Source: Thermodesulfobacteriota bacterium (lineage in GTDB: Bacteria; Desulfobacterota; Desulfobacteria; Desulfobacterales; Desulfosudaceae). From it: a DNA stretch of 53,560 bases. Below the pieces are notes generated by a model. The model was not told the origin of the DNA and did not search any database. It was given only the letters and a program-made list of their open reading frames with translations. Shown one piece after another: positions 1-32,290 of this stretch (its first letter is position 1; every line of letters begins with the position of its first letter). The position numbers and the translations under genes were made by a program. The DNA lies in assembly GCA_040753795.1 (NCBI GenBank), contig JBFMDX010000026.1:1-53560 (forward strand), written 5' to 3'.

Positions 1-480
1 GAACACGAACAGGGGCACGTCCAGCTTTTCCGCCTGGATCTGAAACCACTTCCAGTGGGTGTCGCAGATGGTATTGGTGCAGGTGATGATATCCGGCCGG
101 GCGATGCCGCCGTGTTTCAGGGGCGCGGCGGTGTCCACCGCGCCGATGTTGGTTTTGCAGTAGGAGCAGAGGTCCCGGGAATACCCCATGCTTTCGGCGT
201 GCTCGATCAGCCGCCGGGACTGCTTCTGGGCCGCGGCCACGGTGGCCATGTTCTCCGGGTGCAGCGGGAAAATGTCGAGCCCCAGCAGCAGTTCGATGGG
301 GAAACCGGCGCAGGTCCAGGCGGTCTTTTTCCACGGCAGCAGGCTGTAAAGCTTGCCCGTGAGAAAATACCAGGTCATGGGCCAGCGGAGGTCTCCGGCG
401 TGGGGCAGGGTCTCGACCCGGACAGGGGCGTTCGGGTCCATGGCGGGAGTTGTCGGTTGTTCAGCGTTCATGATGTTCAT
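1..480 (-). CDS. 2-hydroxyacyl-CoA dehydratase/benzoyl-CoA reductase-type subunit, 3' end cut off
   Basis: The first 160 residues are in the window; the gene continues past the left edge. The visible part has the signature of the BcrB/HgdA-type subunit of radical dehydratases/reductases: a TCAGFPIELL segment near residue 55, a CSYCKTNIGAVD motif near 105 and TCTNTICDTHWKW near 135, cysteines that in this family hold the [4Fe-4S] or double-cubane cluster. The start is taken at 480, because its ATG overlaps the TGA of the upstream gene (ATGA at 477-480), a typical sign of translational coupling; an in-frame ATG at 471 is the alternative. With the upstream gene it forms a two-subunit pair. Substrate cannot be told from the sequence; 2-hydroxyacyl-CoA dehydration, aromatic ring reduction and small-molecule reduction by double-cubane proteins are all possible. 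Confidence 0.85.
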   Translation of the reverse strand, partial: MNIMNAEQPTTPAMDPNAPVRVETLPHAGDLRWPMTWYFLTGKLYSLLPWKKTAWTCAGFPIELLLGLDIFPLHPENMATVAAAQKQSRRLIEHAESMGYSRDLCSYCKTNIGAVDTAAPLKHGGIARPDIITCTNTICDTHWKWFQIQAEKLDVPLFVF

Positions 481-13304: not shown

Positions 13305-14621
13305 TTACAGTATGTTTTTCAGCAAATGTCCTGATAGGCGTCGGGACATGGTCAGAATGGTTAGCACCGGCGGCAGGCCGAACTCGAAGGGAATGACGCT
13401 GCCGTCGGACACGAACAGGTTTTTGTACCGGGTCTGAAGATCGCTGTCGACGATGTGGCCGATGCGGCAGGTGCCGCCGGGATGGGCCGCGCCCAGGGCG
13501 CCGTTCCAGATATCTCTGGCGCCCATGTTTTTCAGGATTTTGCGGGCCATGATCTTGCCACGGTTGAGCTTTTCCCGGTCCTGGGCGGTCAGCGGCTTGC
13601 TGATGCGGCCGTCCACGTCGATGACGCCGTCCATGACGTCCCGGGCCTTGGTCATGATGCTGACCTGTCCCTTGCTCTTGAAGGCCTTACCGGGCCGGCC
13701 GGCGAGAATATTGAAAGCAATGGACTGGAACCAGGGATTGGTCATGTCGGTCATCATGATACCGTCTTCTTCCAGGTGCATGCCGGCCGCCATGGCCAGC
13801 TCTTTGCCTGGCTCGGTTTTTCCGTCGATGTAGCCGTTGGTCAGCACGAAGGGGTCAAAGAAGAACTTTCGGCCGGCGTCTTCGATGCCGGAGCGCTGTA
13901 GCAGGGTGGGGGATCCCACGCCGCCGGCGCAGATTACCACGACTTTGGCGCCGATTTCATATTCCCGGCCGGACCGGTCGCTGACCCGGACCCCTTCGGT
14001 TGTGCCGTTGCTGACGATGACTTCCTCGCACAGGGTTTGCGGCAGCAGGCGGGCGCCGCGGTTGACCGCGTCCATGACCCACTGGTAGGCCTCCCATTTG
14101 GCCTGGCTCTTGTCCCCGCAGAAGGTGTCCATGCAGCCGATTCTGGCTTTGGACGGATCGATGAATTTGTTGAGTTTTTTCCAGTCATAGCCCAGGTCCC
14201 GGGCCGAAGTCATGATGGCTCTGGCGGCCGGGCCGATGCGGTCATCGGGCAGGGGGCCGACCTTGAGTTCTTTTTTTATTTTTTCCGTTTCATCTTTCGG
14301 CAGGTTCACGCCAAAAGCGGCCAGTTTTTCGTAGGGCGGATCCCAGGCCGAGGCGGTATAAAACATGGTGGTGCCGCCCACGGTCACGGCCCGCACCATC
14401 ATCAGCAGATCGGGCGTGACCATCAATCCTTTTCCCAGGCTGGTGAAGTATCCGCCCATGGCCTTGATGAAGGTGTGCATGTTGCCCCGGGGCTTGTTGT
14501 CCTTGCCCCATTCCACGATGATGACTTTCTTGCCGGCCAGGGTCAGGTCCCTGGCGATGGTGGCCCCGCCGGGGCCGGAGCCCACGACGACGACGTCGGC
14601 GGACAGGTTCCGGTTATTCAT
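13305..14621 (-). CDS. GMC-family FAD-dependent oxidoreductase
   Basis: The 438-residue protein starts with DVVVVGSGPGGATIARDL (FAD Rossmann motif, residues 9-26). It ends with AAHPGGTCRIG and LFVSDGSVIPFEFGLPPVLTILTMSRRLS, the C-terminal GMC motif in which the catalytic His is expected. An internal cysteine motif, GCMDTFCGDKSQ near residue 165, recalls the Fe-S-like CxxxxC of some anaerobe GMC relatives. The chain is shorter than the usual GMC oxidoreductase (500-600 residues). Substrate is probably an alcohol, sterol-like or long-chain alcohol, but this is not shown. ATG at 14621; the upstream leader contains the heptad repeat array. Confidence 0.85.
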   Translation of the reverse strand: MNNRNLSADVVVVGSGPGGATIARDLTLAGKKVIIVEWGKDNKPRGNMHTFIKAMGGYFTSLGKGLMVTPDLLMMVRAVTVGGTTMFYTASAWDPPYEKLAAFGVNLPKDETEKIKKELKVGPLPDDRIGPAARAIMTSARDLGYDWKKLNKFIDPSKARIGCMDTFCGDKSQAKWEAYQWVMDAVNRGARLLPQTLCEEVIVSNGTTEGVRVSDRSGREYEIGAKVVVICAGGVGSPTLLQRSGIEDAGRKFFFDPFVLTNGYIDGKTEPGKELAMAAGMHLEEDGIMMTDMTNPWFQSIAFNILAGRPGKAFKSKGQVSIMTKARDVMDGVIDVDGRISKPLTAQDREKLNRGKIMARKILKNMGARDIWNGALGAAHPGGTCRIGHIVDSDLQTRYKNLFVSDGSVIPFEFGLPPVLTILTMSRRLSGHLLKNIL

Positions 14622-16590: not shown

Positions 16591-17364
16591 TTACTCCCCG
16601 ACAATCCGGTCCAGCGCCCGGCCCACGGCTTGAAGGGCAGGGCAGTCGGGTAATTCCAGAATGCTCCTGCCCTCGATGTCATACTCCCGGATGGTGTCAT
16701 CATCCGGAATCCAGCCGGCCAGTTCGATGTCCGTGCGGCCGATGATCTTGTCCGCTTCCTCGGCGCTCCTGATCCGGTTTAAAATAAGGAAGGCCTTCTT
16801 GTACTTCACGGTCCTTTTGCCGGCCACATCCCGGATCTCCCGCACCACGTTCAGCCCCTTGGCCGAGGCGTCCGAGGCCAGGACCAGGTAATCCACCTCC
16901 TCCATGACCCGGCGGTTGACCTGCTCGATACCCGCCTCGCCGTCGATGACCACGTAATCAAAATGGTAGGCCGTGGATTTGATGACGTCTTTTAAAAAAT
17001 TGTTGACCCGGCAGTAGCAGCCCTCGGTCTCCGGCCGGCCGATGGCCAGAAAACCCAGGTTGCCGTTTTCCGCGATGGCGTCAAGGACCTCATAGTCGAT
17101 CAGGGAGAGCAGTTCTTTTTTATCGACGGTACTCTCGGTGTTTTTCACGTTTTTGATCAGGGAAGAGCGGATGTCGTCGATGGTCTTGGTAACCGTCATG
17201 CCCAGGGCCATGGCCAGTCCCACGGCCGGATCGGCGTCAATGGCCAGGACCCGGCCGGCGTTGCGGTCACGCAGCAGCTTGATAATGGCGGCGCTCAACG
17301 AGGTCTTGCCCACGCCGCCTTTGCCGCATAAAGCCAGTATCTTTGTATGTTCAGGTTTTTTCAT
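16591..17364 (-). CDS. CooC-type P-loop ATPase (SIMIBI class) with CXC metal motif
   Basis: The 257-residue protein has a deviant Walker A motif GKGGVGKTS with signature Lys15 and Lys20, the switch-like AIDADPAVGLA, and FDYVVIDGEAGIEQ near residue 137. It carries C116-Y-C118 in PETEGCYCRVNNF, the position where CooC proteins of carbon monoxide dehydrogenase maturation bind a bridging metal at the dimer interface. The family inserts metal or drives conformational change with ATP. No CO dehydrogenase gene is in the window; instead the gene overlaps by one base a 2-hydroxyacyl-CoA dehydratase subunit gene. I infer that it matures or activates that enzyme. Last gene of a four-gene operon. Confidence 0.88.
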   Translation of the reverse strand: MKKPEHTKILALCGKGGVGKTSLSAAIIKLLRDRNAGRVLAIDADPAVGLAMALGMTVTKTIDDIRSSLIKNVKNTESTVDKKELLSLIDYEVLDAIAENGNLGFLAIGRPETEGCYCRVNNFLKDVIKSTAYHFDYVVIDGEAGIEQVNRRVMEEVDYLVLASDASAKGLNVVREIRDVAGKRTVKYKKAFLILNRIRSAEEADKIIGRTDIELAGWIPDDDTIREYDIEGRSILELPDCPALQAVGRALDRIVGE

Positions 17365-18767
17365 TAAATAATCTTCCTTACCTCGAGAAATTCCCGCATG
17401 GCACTTTTGCAGGACTCCCAGCTCCGGGCCCGGTCGTCAAAGGCGTCGGCGAACAGGGCGTAGGAAGGGTAGCCGGCGGCTTCCAGGTCCCGTAAAAAAG
17501 GTTTGACCATGCCCCAGGTGTTGCGGCAGCCCAGAGTACCGACGTAAATGGTGCAGTCCGCCTTGTAGAGCTTGCAGGCCGAAAGCGTGTCCTCCAGCCA
17601 CATGGCCGGCGCGTCATAGGGGCCGCGGATCTGCTTGATCATGGGCATGCGCGAGAGCTGATCGGCCAGGCTGTCGATGATGGCCTCTTCCGAGGAGGCG
17701 TCCATTTTGTAACACTGGTCTTCCCGGCCGGCGGCGTAAGGCGCGCCGCTGGGAAAGAAATAGTTGAGCATGCAGCCCATCATGCTGATATCCAGTTCGT
17801 TGAAGAAATTAAAAAAGCGGAAATCCATGGTGTAGTGTTCGATATAGCTGGGCATGCAGCGGGCCCGCTCTTTTCCGGAGAGGGTGCCGGCGATCCCTTT
17901 GGCGTGGTTTTCCATTGATACCCGCAGCATCTCCTCCAGCACCCGGGTGGCCGAGGCCACGCCGTTGAATCCGAACTTGAGCAGGTAGATGATGGGCTGA
18001 ACCAGCGGCGGCACCGGATTGGGCACGCAGGTCATGAGCTGCTGGATTTCATTGATCAGATCATCCTGCCGCTGAATTTCGTGAATCAGTTCGGCCAGTT
18101 TGTCCCAGTCCACCTTTTTGCCGGTCTGTTTTTCCAGAAAAACGAGCATCCGGCGGAAGTCCTGCCGGTTGTAGCGGACGGCCCGTTCTCCGGTCAGGTC
18201 CGGGGGCGAGTCGTGCATGTACATGGGGATGTTCTTCTTGGAGGTATAAAAATGAAAGGCGTTGGCATTGGAGTCGCAGATGCCGGCGGTATTGGCCAGG
18301 CAGAAGTCGGGCGTGGTGCCCAGTCCGGCCATGAAGGCGCCCATGGAGCCGCGCTGGCCGGAGCAGGAAGTCTCGGTCATGCCCAGTTCCACGCAGTGAT
18401 CCAGATATTCGATCACCCCCCGGTTGAAGATCAGCCCGCCGTAGGCGGCCAGAACCTCGGCGTTGATCGGCACGCAGTCAAAGGCCTTGAGAATGCCCAC
18501 CGGGTAGCAGTAGGTGGTCAGCACCGCCTTTTTCCCCTTTTCCCGGGCATAGGTCAGGTCGTCCAGCCACAGGCAGGTGGCGTCGATCAGATAGAGCATG
18601 GCATTGCCGATCTGCTTTAACATGGCAAAGGTGTTGGCCCGCCGCGGCAGAATACTGAAAATCGCCTCCTTTTCTCCGGGGGTGGTGTTTTCCAGCAGGG
18701 CCTTGAGGTTCTGGAACGTGACCAGAAGCTGCCAGTCATAGTTAAACGCCATTAATTCTTTTTTCAC
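17364..18767 (-). CDS. 2-hydroxyacyl-CoA dehydratase/benzoyl-CoA reductase-type large subunit (BcrB/HgdA-like)
   Basis: The 467-residue protein has the family's spaced cysteine motifs: TTYCYPVGIL near residue 86, ETSCSGQRG near 131, AGICDSNAN near 159 and GTLGCRNTWGM near 425. Length fits the larger subunit (BcrB/BzdO are about 440 residues). Start is GTG at 18767, two bases after the upstream stop, with GAGAGG upstream; ATG at 18752 is the alternative. It pairs with the next-upstream 378-residue subunit. The low-potential reaction and substrate cannot be read from the sequence. Confidence 0.88.
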   Translation of the reverse strand: MKKELMAFNYDWQLLVTFQNLKALLENTTPGEKEAIFSILPRRANTFAMLKQIGNAMLYLIDATCLWLDDLTYAREKGKKAVLTTYCYPVGILKAFDCVPINAEVLAAYGGLIFNRGVIEYLDHCVELGMTETSCSGQRGSMGAFMAGLGTTPDFCLANTAGICDSNANAFHFYTSKKNIPMYMHDSPPDLTGERAVRYNRQDFRRMLVFLEKQTGKKVDWDKLAELIHEIQRQDDLINEIQQLMTCVPNPVPPLVQPIIYLLKFGFNGVASATRVLEEMLRVSMENHAKGIAGTLSGKERARCMPSYIEHYTMDFRFFNFFNELDISMMGCMLNYFFPSGAPYAAGREDQCYKMDASSEEAIIDSLADQLSRMPMIKQIRGPYDAPAMWLEDTLSACKLYKADCTIYVGTLGCRNTWGMVKPFLRDLEAAGYPSYALFADAFDDRARSWESCKSAMREFLEVRKII

Positions 18768-18769
18768 AG

Positions 18770-19906
18770 TTATATCCTCTCGACAAAAGCCTGGGCCCGC
18801 ATCTTGACCCGCTCGGTTTCCACCAGCGGTCCGTATTCACGCTCCAGTCTCAGGCAGGGAATGCCCATAGCCGTCAGGTCCTCGGCGTAGAGGCTGTTTT
18901 CGCAGCCGTGCAGATCGCAGAAGCGGATGTTCTGGAAAATAACGCCCTGGGCACGGGCCTGTTTCACTTTGTCCGCCAGATAATCGCTTCTTTCCCTGAA
19001 CCTTCCGAACATACGCGGATGTTTCAGGCTGAGCAGGTAGGACTTGGCGATTTCGTCCACCGGGTCGTCGCTGTCCTCGGCGATCATGTTGTCGTAATAT
19101 TTTGACCCGAAGGACATCATGTCGCCCACGACCACGGCGCCGGTCTGCTCGATGCTGTCGATCAGTCCCCGGTCGTCGTTGACGCTGCCGACGATAAACA
19201 GCCGCTTGCCCGGCACCGGCCGGTCGCTCTGTTCCAGTTCGGCCAGGAGCGCTTCGGCCATTTCGACGAACTGCTCCATGGGCATGGATACCGCCGCCAC
19301 AAAAACCGACAGGGCATCCGCGCCGGAAATGGGAACATCGGGCCGGCTGCGGATTTCATCCAGTTTCTTCAGCAGGCGGCGGCCGTGATTATAGAGCCTG
19401 ATGGAATCGTTCAGCGCTTCTTTTGTGACCCGGACGCCGAAATGGGCTTCCAGTTCGCGGATGTGGAGGCGCAACTCTTCGCTGAACCATTCCAGGCTGA
19501 AGTCGTATGATTTATGGGGCACCGCGAAATATTTAAAAAAGGGAGGGATAACGGCCTCGCCCTCCCGGGCGGCTTTTCGCCAGCACTCGTCCAGTCGTCG
19601 CATGGTGTCGCAAACCGAAGAGGTGACCGCGCCGTCCAGGAACCGGTATTTCTCTTCCCCGGCCATCTGCAGAAGGCTTTTGGGAAAGCTGCAAACCACC
19701 GGACCGAAATAGGCGTCACCCAGGGTGGTGGCCGTGATCTCGTTGGCGCGAAGCCGGATACCGAGGATGCCGGCGGCATGGTAGACTTCCGCGACCGGCA
19801 CCCGGGAATAGCAGTAGCCGATGACCTTGCCGCCGTTTTTTTTGAAATTCCTTACGTAATCATTTTCAATGGTCGAATATATTTCTCTGAACTTATTATT
19901 CAGCAT
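18770..19906 (-). CDS. 2-hydroxyacyl-CoA dehydratase/benzoyl-CoA reductase-type small subunit (BcrC/HgdB-like)
   Basis: The 378-residue protein carries IGYCYSRVPVAEVYHAAG near residue 30, a SSVCDTMRR motif near 96 and FQNIRFCDLHGCENSLYAEDL near 335, which align with the cluster-binding cysteines of BcrC/BadD/HgdB. LRLEREYGPLVET near the end is also typical. Length matches BcrC/BzdN (about 380). The ATG at 19906 is inside the upstream gene (11-base overlap) with GGGAGA seven bases before it. The order small subunit, large subunit recalls the bcrC-bcrB order of class I benzoyl-CoA reductases, but the bcrA/bcrD ATPase subunits are missing. Confidence 0.88.
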   Translation of the reverse strand: MLNNKFREIYSTIENDYVRNFKKNGGKVIGYCYSRVPVAEVYHAAGILGIRLRANEITATTLGDAYFGPVVCSFPKSLLQMAGEEKYRFLDGAVTSSVCDTMRRLDECWRKAAREGEAVIPPFFKYFAVPHKSYDFSLEWFSEELRLHIRELEAHFGVRVTKEALNDSIRLYNHGRRLLKKLDEIRSRPDVPISGADALSVFVAAVSMPMEQFVEMAEALLAELEQSDRPVPGKRLFIVGSVNDDRGLIDSIEQTGAVVVGDMMSFGSKYYDNMIAEDSDDPVDEIAKSYLLSLKHPRMFGRFRERSDYLADKVKQARAQGVIFQNIRFCDLHGCENSLYAEDLTAMGIPCLRLEREYGPLVETERVKMRAQAFVERI

Positions 19907-21218
19907 TGGCGTCTCCCAGAATACCGGCCAGCCGGGCCAGGGCCGATCGCAAATCTTCAGCGTTGTCTTCAGAATCAGGTGTCAGCAGATCGCACAGACC
20001 ATTGATCAGGGGCGGCAGCAGGATCAGGGCCACGGGCCTGGCCGCCTTGCAGATGTCCCGGATCAGATCGCTTTCCGCCAGAGTCCGGACTTCTTCGGTG
20101 TCAATGGTAGCGGCCAGGGCCGATACGGTTCCGGGGATGCGTTCCGGGTCGCCGGCGGTAACATGGTTGGTTATTTCCAGCACCAGGGAGATCAGGTCAG
20201 CCAGTTCCTGTTCGTCAAAGGCCCCGGCAACTTCGGCGACCACCTCATCCAGGTCACGGCCGGGCAGGTCCGCCAGCACCCGCAGCCGGTTCTTCATGGC
20301 CCGGATCCGGGCGTTTTCCGAGAGGGCCGCGGCGGTGAGCATCTTTCTGCCAAACTCGGGGAAGGCATGCATCATGTCCGAAACGGCGTTTTTAATCGCC
20401 TCCCTGTCCCCCGCTTTTCCGGCCACGGCTTCCGCGTAGCGCTGGGGATCGATTTCGCTGACGATCTCTTTAAGCATGTCTCCGGTAAGGGTTTGCAAGG
20501 CCGGCGTGACGCCGTCCCCGCCCAGGCTGCTGCCGATATGAACTCTCCTGCCCAGTTCATAATAATCGTTGAGCATCCGGCCCACTTCTTTCCAGTCGAT
20601 TTTGCCGTTAAGACCACTGGCAATTTCAAACAACATCTCCGGCGGTAGAACTTTTATCTGGGAGGCAAGGTTCAGGTTCAGGGTATTGGCGGCAAGGCTG
20701 ATGACAGTGGGCAGGGCGGCCAGGACCACCAGTATTTTGCCCTGGTATTGCGGCAGAATTTCATTGAGCCGGCGGGCGGCTTCGATGCGGCCCTCTTTTG
20801 AGGTCTCCAGCAGGGTCTTCCATTGGGACAGGTCGATGTTGTCCAGCAGGGATTTCACAAAGGCGGACTGATTGTCGGCGGCTTCGGTCGGGTTCTCCCG
20901 AATTTCCCGGGTGCGCAGCCTCCACCGCAGGACCAGAAACCGGCCCAGGGTCGCGGCCATGTCCGCCAGACCGCTTTTGTCTCCCGGAGGCAGGGCCGGC
21001 ATGGTTTTCAAGGCCATCCAGGAAATGATTTTTTTGAGAACACTGCCGCCCGACCAGGCCGACATGACGGCACCGGCCACGGCCTGCAGGGTCTGCTGCG
21101 CCTTGGGGTCGCCCATCAGGTTGACCGCCAGTTCCCCCAGCAGACGGTCCATCTCCTTTTTCAATTCTTCGGGGTTTTCCGAAGGGGTTCCTGCCGTCTG
21201 CTTTTTTTCTGTATTCAT
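19896..21218 (-). CDS. unknown 440-residue helical protein, first gene of the dehydratase-type operon
   Basis: I do not recognise this protein. It is rich in Ala and Leu, with no cysteine cluster and no signal peptide. It has many amphipathic helices and several moderately hydrophobic segments (about residues 44-72 and 165-185 with GKILVVLAALPTVISLAANTL, and 385-405 with AARPVALILLPPLINGLCDLL). These could be membrane-associated or buried helices of an alpha-solenoid. The gene overlaps the small-subunit gene by 11 bases, so it is very probably co-translated with it. ATG at 21218 has no clear ribosome-binding site. Its fixed place in the operon suggests a partner or membrane-docking role (inference). 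Confidence 0.65.
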   Translation of the reverse strand: MNTEKKQTAGTPSENPEELKKEMDRLLGELAVNLMGDPKAQQTLQAVAGAVMSAWSGGSVLKKIISWMALKTMPALPPGDKSGLADMAATLGRFLVLRWRLRTREIRENPTEAADNQSAFVKSLLDNIDLSQWKTLLETSKEGRIEAARRLNEILPQYQGKILVVLAALPTVISLAANTLNLNLASQIKVLPPEMLFEIASGLNGKIDWKEVGRMLNDYYELGRRVHIGSSLGGDGVTPALQTLTGDMLKEIVSEIDPQRYAEAVAGKAGDREAIKNAVSDMMHAFPEFGRKMLTAAALSENARIRAMKNRLRVLADLPGRDLDEVVAEVAGAFDEQELADLISLVLEITNHVTAGDPERIPGTVSALAATIDTEEVRTLAESDLIRDICKAARPVALILLPPLINGLCDLLTPDSEDNAEDLRSALARLAGILGDANAE

Positions 21219-21284: not shown

Positions 21285-21383
21285 AAGCGGCCAAAAAAAA
21301 ATGAGAAAGAATACTGATTTTTTTAAAAATTATTCTTACCCGTCGGTAGTTGTCAAGAGAAAACATCACCCAATAGGTTTTTA

Positions 21384-30418: not shown

Positions 30419-32290
30419 ATGAAAACCAAGAAAAATATGGCAGGTCCGTCCAACAAGGTTCTCGAAGTGGATTTGTCCTCCCGCAAGGTAGACATTTATA
30501 CGGTGCCCCAGGAGTTGCGGAGGATGTATCTGGGCGCAAAAGGCCTGGGGTTGAAACTGATCTTCGACCGCATGCCGGCCGGGGTTGATCCCCTGGGCGA
30601 TGAAAATATTCTGGCCTTTATGCCGGGCGTGCTTCTGGGCACCGGCGCCCCCTGCACGGGAAGGTTTGACGCTATTACCAAGTCCCCGCAGACGGGCATC
30701 ATGACGTCGTCTTCCTGCGGCGGCCCTTTCGGCATGCAGTTAAAAACGGCCGGGTGGGACGGGCTGCTGATCAAGGGCAAGGCCGACCGTCCGGTTTATC
30801 TGGAGATTACGGCCCAGAACGTTACCTTCAAGGAAGCGGACAGCCTCTGGGGCAAAGATACTGTCACCGCCCAGCAGGAGCTGGTGGACAATAAACAATC
30901 GGCCGCCCTGGTGATCGGTCCGGCCGGCGAGAACAAGGTCCGTTATGCCAATATCGCTTCGGGGCACCGCTTTCTCGGACGCGGCGGCATGGGCGCGGTC
31001 ATGGGCGCCAAAAACCTGAAGGCCATCGTGGCCATCGGCGGTGACTATCGGATCAAGCCGGTGGATGAGGCGGGGTTTGAGAAAGCCAAGAAAACGGCTG
31101 CCAAGTACATTGCCGGCAACAATATGACCTCCGCCGTGTATACCAATTACGGCACCCGGGCCAACGTCAACTTGAGCAACAAGGCCAATATTCTGCCGAT
31201 CAATAATTTTTCCGACGGCCACAGCGACCTGGCGGTGAATCTGTCCGGTGAGAAGATCAGCCAGGAGCATCAGACCCGGCACAGCACCTGCAAACCCTGT
31301 TCCATTCTCTGCGGGCAGAAGGGGATCTTCAACGGCAAGGAACTCCCTGTTCCCGAATTCGAGACGGTCGGCCTGCTGGGTTCCAACATCGGCATATTTG
31401 ACGCCAACCAGGTGGCCGAATTCAATCGCGTCTGCAATGAAACGGGCATGGACACCATTTCCGCCGGCGGCACCATCGCCTGGGTTATGGAGGCTGCGGA
31501 AAAGGGGTTGGTACAGAGCCCCCTGCGGTTCGGATCGGCCGAGGGCGTGGAGCAGGCCCTTCTGGATATCGCCCACTGCCGGGGGTTCGGGGCGGAAATG
31601 GCGCTGGGTTGCAAAGCCCTGGCGAAAAAATACGGCGGCGCCGAGTTCGCCATGCAGGTCAAAGGCATGGAAATGGCGGCCTACGACCCCCGCGGCTCAT
31701 ACGGTCAGGGCCTGGCCTACGCCGTCGCCAACCGCGGCGCCTGTCATCTGTCGGCTTATCTCATCGCCCAGGAGGTGTATTTCAAACTTCTGGACCCGCG
31801 CCGGACATACGCCAAACCGGAGTTTACCAAATTTTTTGAAAGCCTGACCTGCTGCATCAATTCCCTGCAGACCTGTCAGTTCACCATGTTCGCCTATCTG
31901 CTGGAACCGCCCATGTCCAAATACTCCCTGGATGTGGTCCTGGCTTTCCTGATGCAGAACCTGCCGGTCATCGCCATCAAGTTCATCGATTTTGGCGTTT
32001 ACACCAAACTCTGGTCTTCGGTAACCGGCATCAAGATGTCCAACAGCGAGTTTCTTAAGGCCGGGGACCGGATTCATGTTCTGGAACGCTACATGAATAC
32101 CCGGGAGGGGATTTCCCGGAAAGACGACACCCTGCCGCTGCGGCTGCTCCGGGAAGGCCGGAAATCAGACCCCCAGGCCAGGACGGTGCCGCTGGATGAA
32201 ATGCTGGACAAATATTACCGGCTCCGGGGTTTTGACGAAAACGGCATCCCCACCCGCGAGACGTTGAAAAATCTGAATATCACGACGTAG
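30419..32290 (+). CDS. aldehyde:ferredoxin oxidoreductase (tungsten/molybdenum bis-pterin enzyme)
   Basis: The 623-residue protein has the length and motifs of the AOR family. The N-terminal domain contains YLGAKGLGLKL and GPCTGRFDAITKSPQTG-like segments that bind the bis-pterin cofactor (written here as GAPCTGRFDAITKSPQTG). The [4Fe-4S] cysteines are C291, C294 and C298 in STCKPCSILCGQ, with the fourth most likely C486 in SLQTCQFTMF. It oxidises aldehydes to acids with ferredoxin, or the reverse. Start is supported by ACGAGGTGG upstream. It is preceded by tetR and a structured leader and followed 44 bp later by an unknown 562-residue protein that probably works with it. Confidence 0.92.
   Translation: MKTKKNMAGPSNKVLEVDLSSRKVDIYTVPQELRRMYLGAKGLGLKLIFDRMPAGVDPLGDENILAFMPGVLLGTGAPCTGRFDAITKSPQTGIMTSSSCGGPFGMQLKTAGWDGLLIKGKADRPVYLEITAQNVTFKEADSLWGKDTVTAQQELVDNKQSAALVIGPAGENKVRYANIASGHRFLGRGGMGAVMGAKNLKAIVAIGGDYRIKPVDEAGFEKAKKTAAKYIAGNNMTSAVYTNYGTRANVNLSNKANILPINNFSDGHSDLAVNLSGEKISQEHQTRHSTCKPCSILCGQKGIFNGKELPVPEFETVGLLGSNIGIFDANQVAEFNRVCNETGMDTISAGGTIAWVMEAAEKGLVQSPLRFGSAEGVEQALLDIAHCRGFGAEMALGCKALAKKYGGAEFAMQVKGMEMAAYDPRGSYGQGLAYAVANRGACHLSAYLIAQEVYFKLLDPRRTYAKPEFTKFFESLTCCINSLQTCQFTMFAYLLEPPMSKYSLDVVLAFLMQNLPVIAIKFIDFGVYTKLWSSVTGIKMSNSEFLKAGDRIHVLERYMNTREGISRKDDTLPLRLLREGRKSDPQARTVPLDEMLDKYYRLRGFDENGIPTRETLKNLNITT

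Follow-up and report, generated by a model that had tools for sequence, protein, structure and literature searches.

Whether a CooC-like ATPase has taken the place of the usual ASKHA-type activator is the question raised by a four-gene operon of the benzoyl-CoA reductase/2-hydroxyacyl-CoA dehydratase family in a Desulfosudaceae genome (Thermodesulfobacteriota bacterium, assembly GCA_040753795.1; 4.75 Mb, 41 contigs). The window, i.e. the whole stretch of DNA analysed here, is the entire contig C26 (JBFMDX010000026.1; 53,560 nucleotides), and the operon on its minus strand encodes a 440-aa protein (H440), two HGD-D subunits of 378 and 467 aa (HGD378 and HGD467) and a SIMIBI ATPase of the CooC type. 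The original prediction, made from the sequence alone, proposed a distinct class lacking ASKHA, in which the ATPase loads metal into, or energises, a double-cubane-type reductase with the 440-aa protein as docking partner. The operon is a divergent, reduced copy of a bacterial gene cluster that is conserved and, it seems, has not been described before, and the relatives of which encode ASKHA ATPases. Its function is best described, with about an even chance of being right, as that of a dehydratase-like pair activated in trans, standing beside a CooC that serves a sister cluster on contig C4 of the same genome.

Gene content of the operon

The four minus-strand frames, the CYC motif of the ATPase and the gene packing (a 1-base overlap between the 257- and 467-aa genes, a 2-base gap between the 467- and 378-aa genes and an 11-base overlap between the 378- and 440-aa genes) are exactly as originally described, and all frames are intact. 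HGD378 and HGD467 match the HGD-D family PF06050 in Pfam (E-values of 8e-75 and 5e-41, respectively), of which the source genome contains 19 matches, and the 257-aa protein matches CbiA/AAA_31-type P-loop ATPases of the MinD/ParA/CooC kind. The window was rightly said to be free of ASKHA and carbon monoxide dehydrogenase (CODH) genes: none of the 13 PF01869 matches of the genome is on C26, and its two PF03063 matches are on contigs C12 and C1, with the full-length acetyl-CoA synthase (ACS) also on C1. As the operon lies ~16.6 and ~32.3 kb from the contig ends, the missing ASKHA gene is not a contig-end artefact.

The description of the 440-aa protein as helical and without recognised family also stands, with no Pfam match at E ≤ 0.1 and an all-helical AlphaFold2 (AF2) model of 20 helices (mean predicted local distance difference test score, pLDDT, 75; predicted template modelling score, pTM, 0.58). 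A structure search of the PDB with this fold gave no match at E ≤ 0.001, and the best match of the sequence against the PDB (E 0.013) is not meaningful. H440 would probably act as a helical scaffold for the 378/467 pair. Members of its family occur in 58 of 389 genomes of the class (26 of 147 in a first draw), the nearest relative of the window protein being 29% identical, and 33 named loci found by pattern are mostly from metagenome-assembled genomes (MAGs) of Desulfobacterales or Deltaproteobacteria. The family was also detected in three Spirochaetes MAGs and one Bacillota MAG, although its occurrence outside the sampled class rests on few MAG contigs and may reflect misbinning.

A conserved cluster in relatives

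In relatives, H440 marks a cluster made up of a GMC oxidoreductase, H440, BzdN-like and BzdO-like subunits, two ASKHA ATPases, a protein with an ACS middle domain, and CooC. Its conservation was assessed on 67 distinct H440 loci, mostly from Desulfobacterales, obtained from 94 examined by merging at 99% identity; many contigs are short, and each neighbour count covers only the loci with the stated room, the window being included in n. Three weak H440 places (G165, G148 and the third of G363) were left unfetched by coordinates, 30 of 64 having come with loci, and G165 and G148 were read later via the search for ACS fragments described below. As the profiles used for labelling derive from the very loci analysed, they favour the H440-cluster family.

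HGD378 adjoins H440 in 63 of 64 loci, the sole exception (L071) having a gene with a longer open frame, and HGD467 is present in all 56 loci with room. In 47/48 loci at least one ASKHA gene of the same strand follows within 8 kb, and in 41/42 two do so, the window being the only miss in either count. For CooC, 36 of 42 loci, window included, have the gene no more than 12 kb downstream (35 on the same strand); the ACS-domain gene is found in 35/42, and the GMC oxidoreductase just upstream in 35/43. A second HGD378 is present in 12 of 30 loci, and a cluster-type GntR gene on 21 of 67. As had been anticipated, these counts show the CooC-like ATPase and the 440-aa protein to be conserved neighbours of the two subunits, whereas the notion of an ASKHA-free class has to be abandoned for the family, relatives carrying ASKHA genes in the same cluster, a finding that the original prediction had itself named as refuting it.

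The flanks of 22 chosen loci, 21 of which yielded 89 open reading frames (L111 gave none), revealed no shared catabolic pathway; in the 25 families shown of 125, TetR_N has four members, TPR, FtsX and MacB three each, and aldehyde ferredoxin oxidoreductase (AFOR) two. In two Spirochaetes loci a gene of ~210-220 aa separates GMC from H440, and in the Bacillota locus such a gene lies immediately 5' of H440 (L133:9384-10016, L136:9064-9732 and L137:9013-9675); the L133 copy is a TetR regulator and shares 46% identity with the L136 copy. Another type of HGD cluster that includes a CooC-like gene was observed at L217 (contig C7 of G058), in the order HGD-HGD-ASKHA-ASKHA-ASKHA-CooC, followed by SDR and AMP-ligase genes.

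No description of the H440 cluster was found in open-licence PubMed Central (PMC) papers, which does not imply its absence from print. The 'Magic' benzene cluster of Desulfobacterota, as presented in the accessible part of PMC13101534, is a different gene set, and the accessible part of PMC10418091 has no bearing on the H440 cluster.

CooC and its ACS-like partner

The best solved relative of the window ATPase is CooC (3kje; E 4e-16), with CYC aligning on CYC, and the CXC motif is present in all 36 cluster CooCs, window included. In a quick tree, made with no bootstrap and having long outgroup branches, the cluster CooCs form one clade (Shimodaira-Hasegawa-like approximate likelihood ratio test, SH-aLRT, 99) apart from the other CooC-like proteins compared, and the window CooC falls inside it on a branch of 0.28. 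It shares 72% identity with the CooC that closes the full cluster of G032, a genome of the same family, and 29-38% with the other three CooC-like matches of the source genome, of which it is the only cluster-type CooC. The original prediction had considered that relatives of the ATPase might be found mainly beside cooS/acs genes; they form instead this one clade, and across 32 genomes no PF03063 match was found on a cluster contig nearer than ~110 kb, many of these contigs being short. Within the reach of these contigs, the cluster CooC genes therefore do not belong to CODH operons, and a stray origin from such an operon is not supported.

These data bear on the proposal that the CooC-like SIMIBI ATPase replaces ASKHA here, acting on the reductase itself to energise or load it, with docking by the 440-aa protein. 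NifH-type SIMIBI proteins drive reductases, the genes for the ATPase and HGD467 share one base, and the contig has no ASKHA gene. However, orthologues of the ATPase live in clusters keeping two ASKHA genes, the window protein sits within the cluster clade on its short branch with 64 of 68 invariant residues kept, and ASKHA proteins are available in trans, candidate genes being located on contigs C4, C9 and C10. Such a takeover is considered very improbable, and the presence of two ASKHA genes alongside its orthologues makes CooC an unlikely energiser.

The neighbour of CooC in relatives is a ~247-aa protein with an ACS middle domain (PF03598, E 1e-14; PDB profile match, E 2e-11), the AF2 model of which (pLDDT 84) gave Foldseek matches to ACS (1oao and 9c0s) at E 1e-11. 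A C-x2-C-x5-C motif is found in all 37 ACS fragments, which end ~30 residues past the start of this motif, and its CxxC aligns with Cys514/Cys517 of the ACS of the source genome, presumably the first two A-cluster cysteines. The CGC nickel motif was found in none of the 37. Frame length and score set the short ACS-like genes off from full-length ACS, giving 45 places in 241 genomes that we picked from the score gap, and CooC lies on the same strand within 1.5 kb at 37 of them, some of the eight misses being near contig ends. CooC was accordingly rejected as a chance neighbour, on this count and on that at H440 loci. Two short ACS-like matches, in L235 (G086) and L240 (G147), contain one in-frame TAA each; the G086 frame is still 240 aa long, and the TAA may simply be the gene end.

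CooC is also encoded apart from H440. Five genomes from a single family have, on a contig other than that of H440, a locus with the order ACS fragment-CooC-HGD378-HGD467-ASKHA (L216, L255, L257, L259 and L260). The CooC-less H440 loci number six: three of them (L068, L069 and L178) belong to genomes with a separate ACS fragment-CooC-HGD locus, the genome of L081 has a second, CooC-bearing locus (L089), and the C4 cluster of the source genome has the CooC of the window, which leaves L182 as the only one for which no CooC was found.

It is plausible that CooC is a metal-handling partner of the ACS fragment. In a stricter version, CooC would load nickel or another metal into the ACS-like protein or the sister-cluster reductase, the window trio being irrelevant and its place in the operon a rearrangement. 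The close linkage of CooC to the ACS fragment and the alignment of its CxxC with that of the genome's own ACS are in favour of this, as is the putative isoprene reductase operon, where, according to the accessible part of PMC10134865, genes for nickel chaperones adjoin that of an oxidoreductase other than a hydrogenase. Against it stand the missing CGC motif and the report, in the accessible part of PMC11971306, that BzdNO obtained from E. coli carries both clusters, so that Bzd-type clusters by themselves can do without CooC. This version appears quite improbable.

Cysteine ligands of the subunits

In BzdN, the [8Fe-9S] cluster is bound by Cys36, Cys73, Cys100, Cys263, Cys293 and Cys327, and in BzdO the active-site cluster by Cys95, Cys128 and Cys380, as given in the accessible text of PMC11971306. 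Counting only proteins above a length limit, the six matching cysteines are present in 62/63 first-pair and 13/13 second-pair HGD378 proteins, as well as in all 14 HGD378 proteins longer than 330 aa from further loci. The only exception is the window HGD378, with Y, C, C, S, H and C at the six sites: C72, C99 and C330 are kept, while position 33 is Y, 265 is S and 296 is H. An earlier count of 72/74 had two exceptions, both from the window: HGD378 and the HGD gene of another type at 477-1514, which was dropped from later counts. The three lost cysteines have no counterpart in BzdO and are therefore taken as ligands of the distal sub-cluster. The expectation of a double-cubane-type reductase is thus borne out for the family, with its six cysteines, but not for the window copy, from which three of the six ligands are gone.

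The losses are concentrated. Of the 70 columns that do not vary among its relatives, HGD378 of the window keeps 64, and these cysteines account for three of the six losses; if losses fell evenly, the chance of at least three of the six cysteines being hit would be P = 0.007, and that of this exact trio 3.7e-4. The tree places it among the first-pair proteins (split 100/100), where its branch is long and lacks a supported sister. HGD467 retains C135, C164 and C414, three cysteines found in 71/71 family members, window included. The column of the BzdO acid/base residue His131 is Asn in all 56 first-pair proteins, again including the window, and the chemistry therefore need not be benzoyl-CoA reduction. 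For the GMC oxidoreductase, a C-x3-C-x2-C-x3-C motif is present in 40 of 46 cluster proteins and absent in exact form from the window and five others, three of its four cysteines being missing from the window protein.

The sister cluster and the proposed explanation

Contig C4 of the source genome carries a second H440 cluster, in the order GntR-H440-HGD378-HGD467-ASKHA-ASKHA-ACS fragment-HGD378-HGD467-ASKHA, with no CooC and no GMC gene; a GMC oxidoreductase with the four-Cys motif is encoded on C20. Given that the window CooC belongs to the cluster clade, resembles that of G032 and is only distantly similar to the genome's other CooC-like proteins, the window carries the CooC that C4 lacks. 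The window trio was also considered as a recent duplicate of C4, which is not supported, its HGD378 not grouping with the C4 copy and the two H440 copies being 26% identical.

In a full cluster, the two ASKHA ATPases would push electrons into the BzdN-like double-cubane subunit and from there into the BzdO-like single-cubane subunit. The window 378/467 pair, by contrast with such a reductase, may act like a 2-hydroxyacyl-CoA dehydratase (HAD), having one [4Fe-4S]-type cluster per subunit and one recycled electron, and would need only occasional activation by an ASKHA protein from C4, C9 or C10. According to the accessible part of PMC11971306, HADs differ from class I reductases in that a single electron, once activated, is reused through many turnovers, and an activator encoded elsewhere would therefore suffice. 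CooC would be the usual metal-handling ATPase of the cluster, displaced from the C4 cluster and probably serving it in trans.

Several observations weigh against a dehydratase-like pair activated in trans. The assignment of the three cysteines to the distal sub-cluster was derived from homology to BzdO, not from the paper, and C32, adjacent to the position of the lost Cys33, may yet serve as a ligand. The HadB and HadC NCBIfam cut-offs are unreached (32.8/750 and 115.9/700 bits). HGD378 (64/70), HGD467 (74/86) and the GMC protein (73/89) of the window retain the fewest invariant residues of the relatives compared, the HGD378 branch (1.64) is the second longest in its tree, where the median end branch is 0.22, and the window CooC ranks second lowest of 36 in invariants (64/68). 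With the fewest invariants and a long HGD378 branch, decay has to be weighed: the H440-HGD378-HGD467 trio would be decaying after loss of ASKHA, and only CooC would be under selection, because C4 needs it. The distance of H440 from its nearest relative and the loss of the GMC Cys motif point in the same direction. On the other side, all frames are open and tightly packed (overlaps of 1 and 11 bases, a 2-base gap), all three HGD467 ligands are kept, the HGD378 losses centre on one site, with 61 of 64 non-Cys invariants kept, and CooC, supposedly the one gene under selection, itself ranks second lowest in its family. Decay is judged unlikely.

The finding of wider interest is the CooC and ACS-fragment module tied to benzoyl-CoA-reductase-like enzymes, which links the ATP-driven benzoyl-CoA reductase/dehydratase family with a CooC and ACS-domain pair, a union not found in open-licence papers. 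It might be speculated that this pair forms a module that handles metal specifically for class I benzoyl-CoA-reductase-like enzymes, which would carry, or assemble through, a nickel or heterometal centre new to the family, the window being a variant whose ancestor lost the distal cubane and ASKHA and kept the ATPase; we hold this idea only tentatively and, on balance, doubt it.

Features of the window

Coordinates of the operon and of further genes in the window are collected in Table 1. The promoter-like site upstream of H440 is weak evidence, the region containing 6 such sites against a shuffle mean of 2.6 (standard deviation 1.9).

Table 1. Features of the 53,560-nt window.
Feature	Position	Strand	Basis or remark
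H440, 440 aa, all-helical	19896..21218	minus	Divergent member of the ~490-aa family marking the cluster
HGD378, BzdN/BcrC-like subunit, 378 aa	18770..19906	minus	PF06050
HGD467, BzdO/HadB-like putative catalytic subunit, 467 aa, GTG start	17364..18767	minus	PF06050; BzdO profile match
CooC-type SIMIBI ATPase, 257 aa, C116-Y-C118	16591..17364	minus	Clade and identity to cluster CooC
GMC oxidoreductase, paralogue of the cluster family	13305..14621	minus	GMC profile, 608 bits
Promoter-like TTGACA-16-AATAAT, ~110 nt 5' of the H440 start	21329..21356	minus	11/12 consensus bases; weak evidence
HGD-D gene, 345 aa	477..1514	minus	Lacks three further cluster Cys; outside the described cluster family
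HGD-D match	1..312	minus	Truncated at the contig end; not of the described cluster family
AFOR gene	30419..32290	plus
DUF6909 protein, 562 aa	32335..34023	plus	Adjoins the AFOR gene

Comparison with known systems

The cluster family resembles the Bzd-type class I benzoyl-CoA reductase (BzdNOPQ, 8s02) in its six-Cys N-like subunit, three-Cys O-like subunit and two ASKHA ATPases, and BzdN and BzdO are the best solved matches of the HGD378 (E 1.5e-59) and HGD467 (E 8e-25) profiles, respectively. It differs from the Bzd type in the additional H440, CooC, ACS fragment and Cys-motif GMC oxidoreductase. The window pair falls far below the bzdN and bzdO equivalog cut-offs (91.8/453.8 and 20.7/448.6 bits), with three ligands missing from its N-like subunit and no ASKHA gene on the contig; like the other first-pair proteins of the family, it has Asn in the His131 column.

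With the 2-hydroxyacyl-CoA dehydratases (HadBC/HadI), the window pair shares the heterodimer type, three cluster Cys per subunit and a predicted incomplete set of second-cubane ligands; in the alignment, HadC of the solved dehydratase likewise has no equivalents of C33 and C265, and keeps a Cys at 296. The window operon differs in having no adjoining activator gene (HgdC/HadI) and in its ancestry within a six-Cys family. The six-Cys pattern of related HGD378 proteins is also common to the double-cubane cluster protein DCCP (6eno, 7yyl), whose family NF040772 is the best NCBIfam match of the window HGD378 (134.2 bits; cut-off 350), whereas the latter is without three of the ligands. DCCP is a homodimer, according to the accessible part of PMC11971306.

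The window ATPase is of the CooC/AcsF kind (CooC1, 3kje), a P-loop protein with CXC, but adjoins HGD genes, and the cluster CooCs in general stand beside HGD and ASKHA genes and the ACS fragment, with no PF03063 gene near them in the 32 genomes searched. The ~247-aa partner in relatives has the fold of the ACS middle domain (1oao, 9c0s) and differs from ACS in covering only part of it, with no CGC; it is absent from the window and present on C4.

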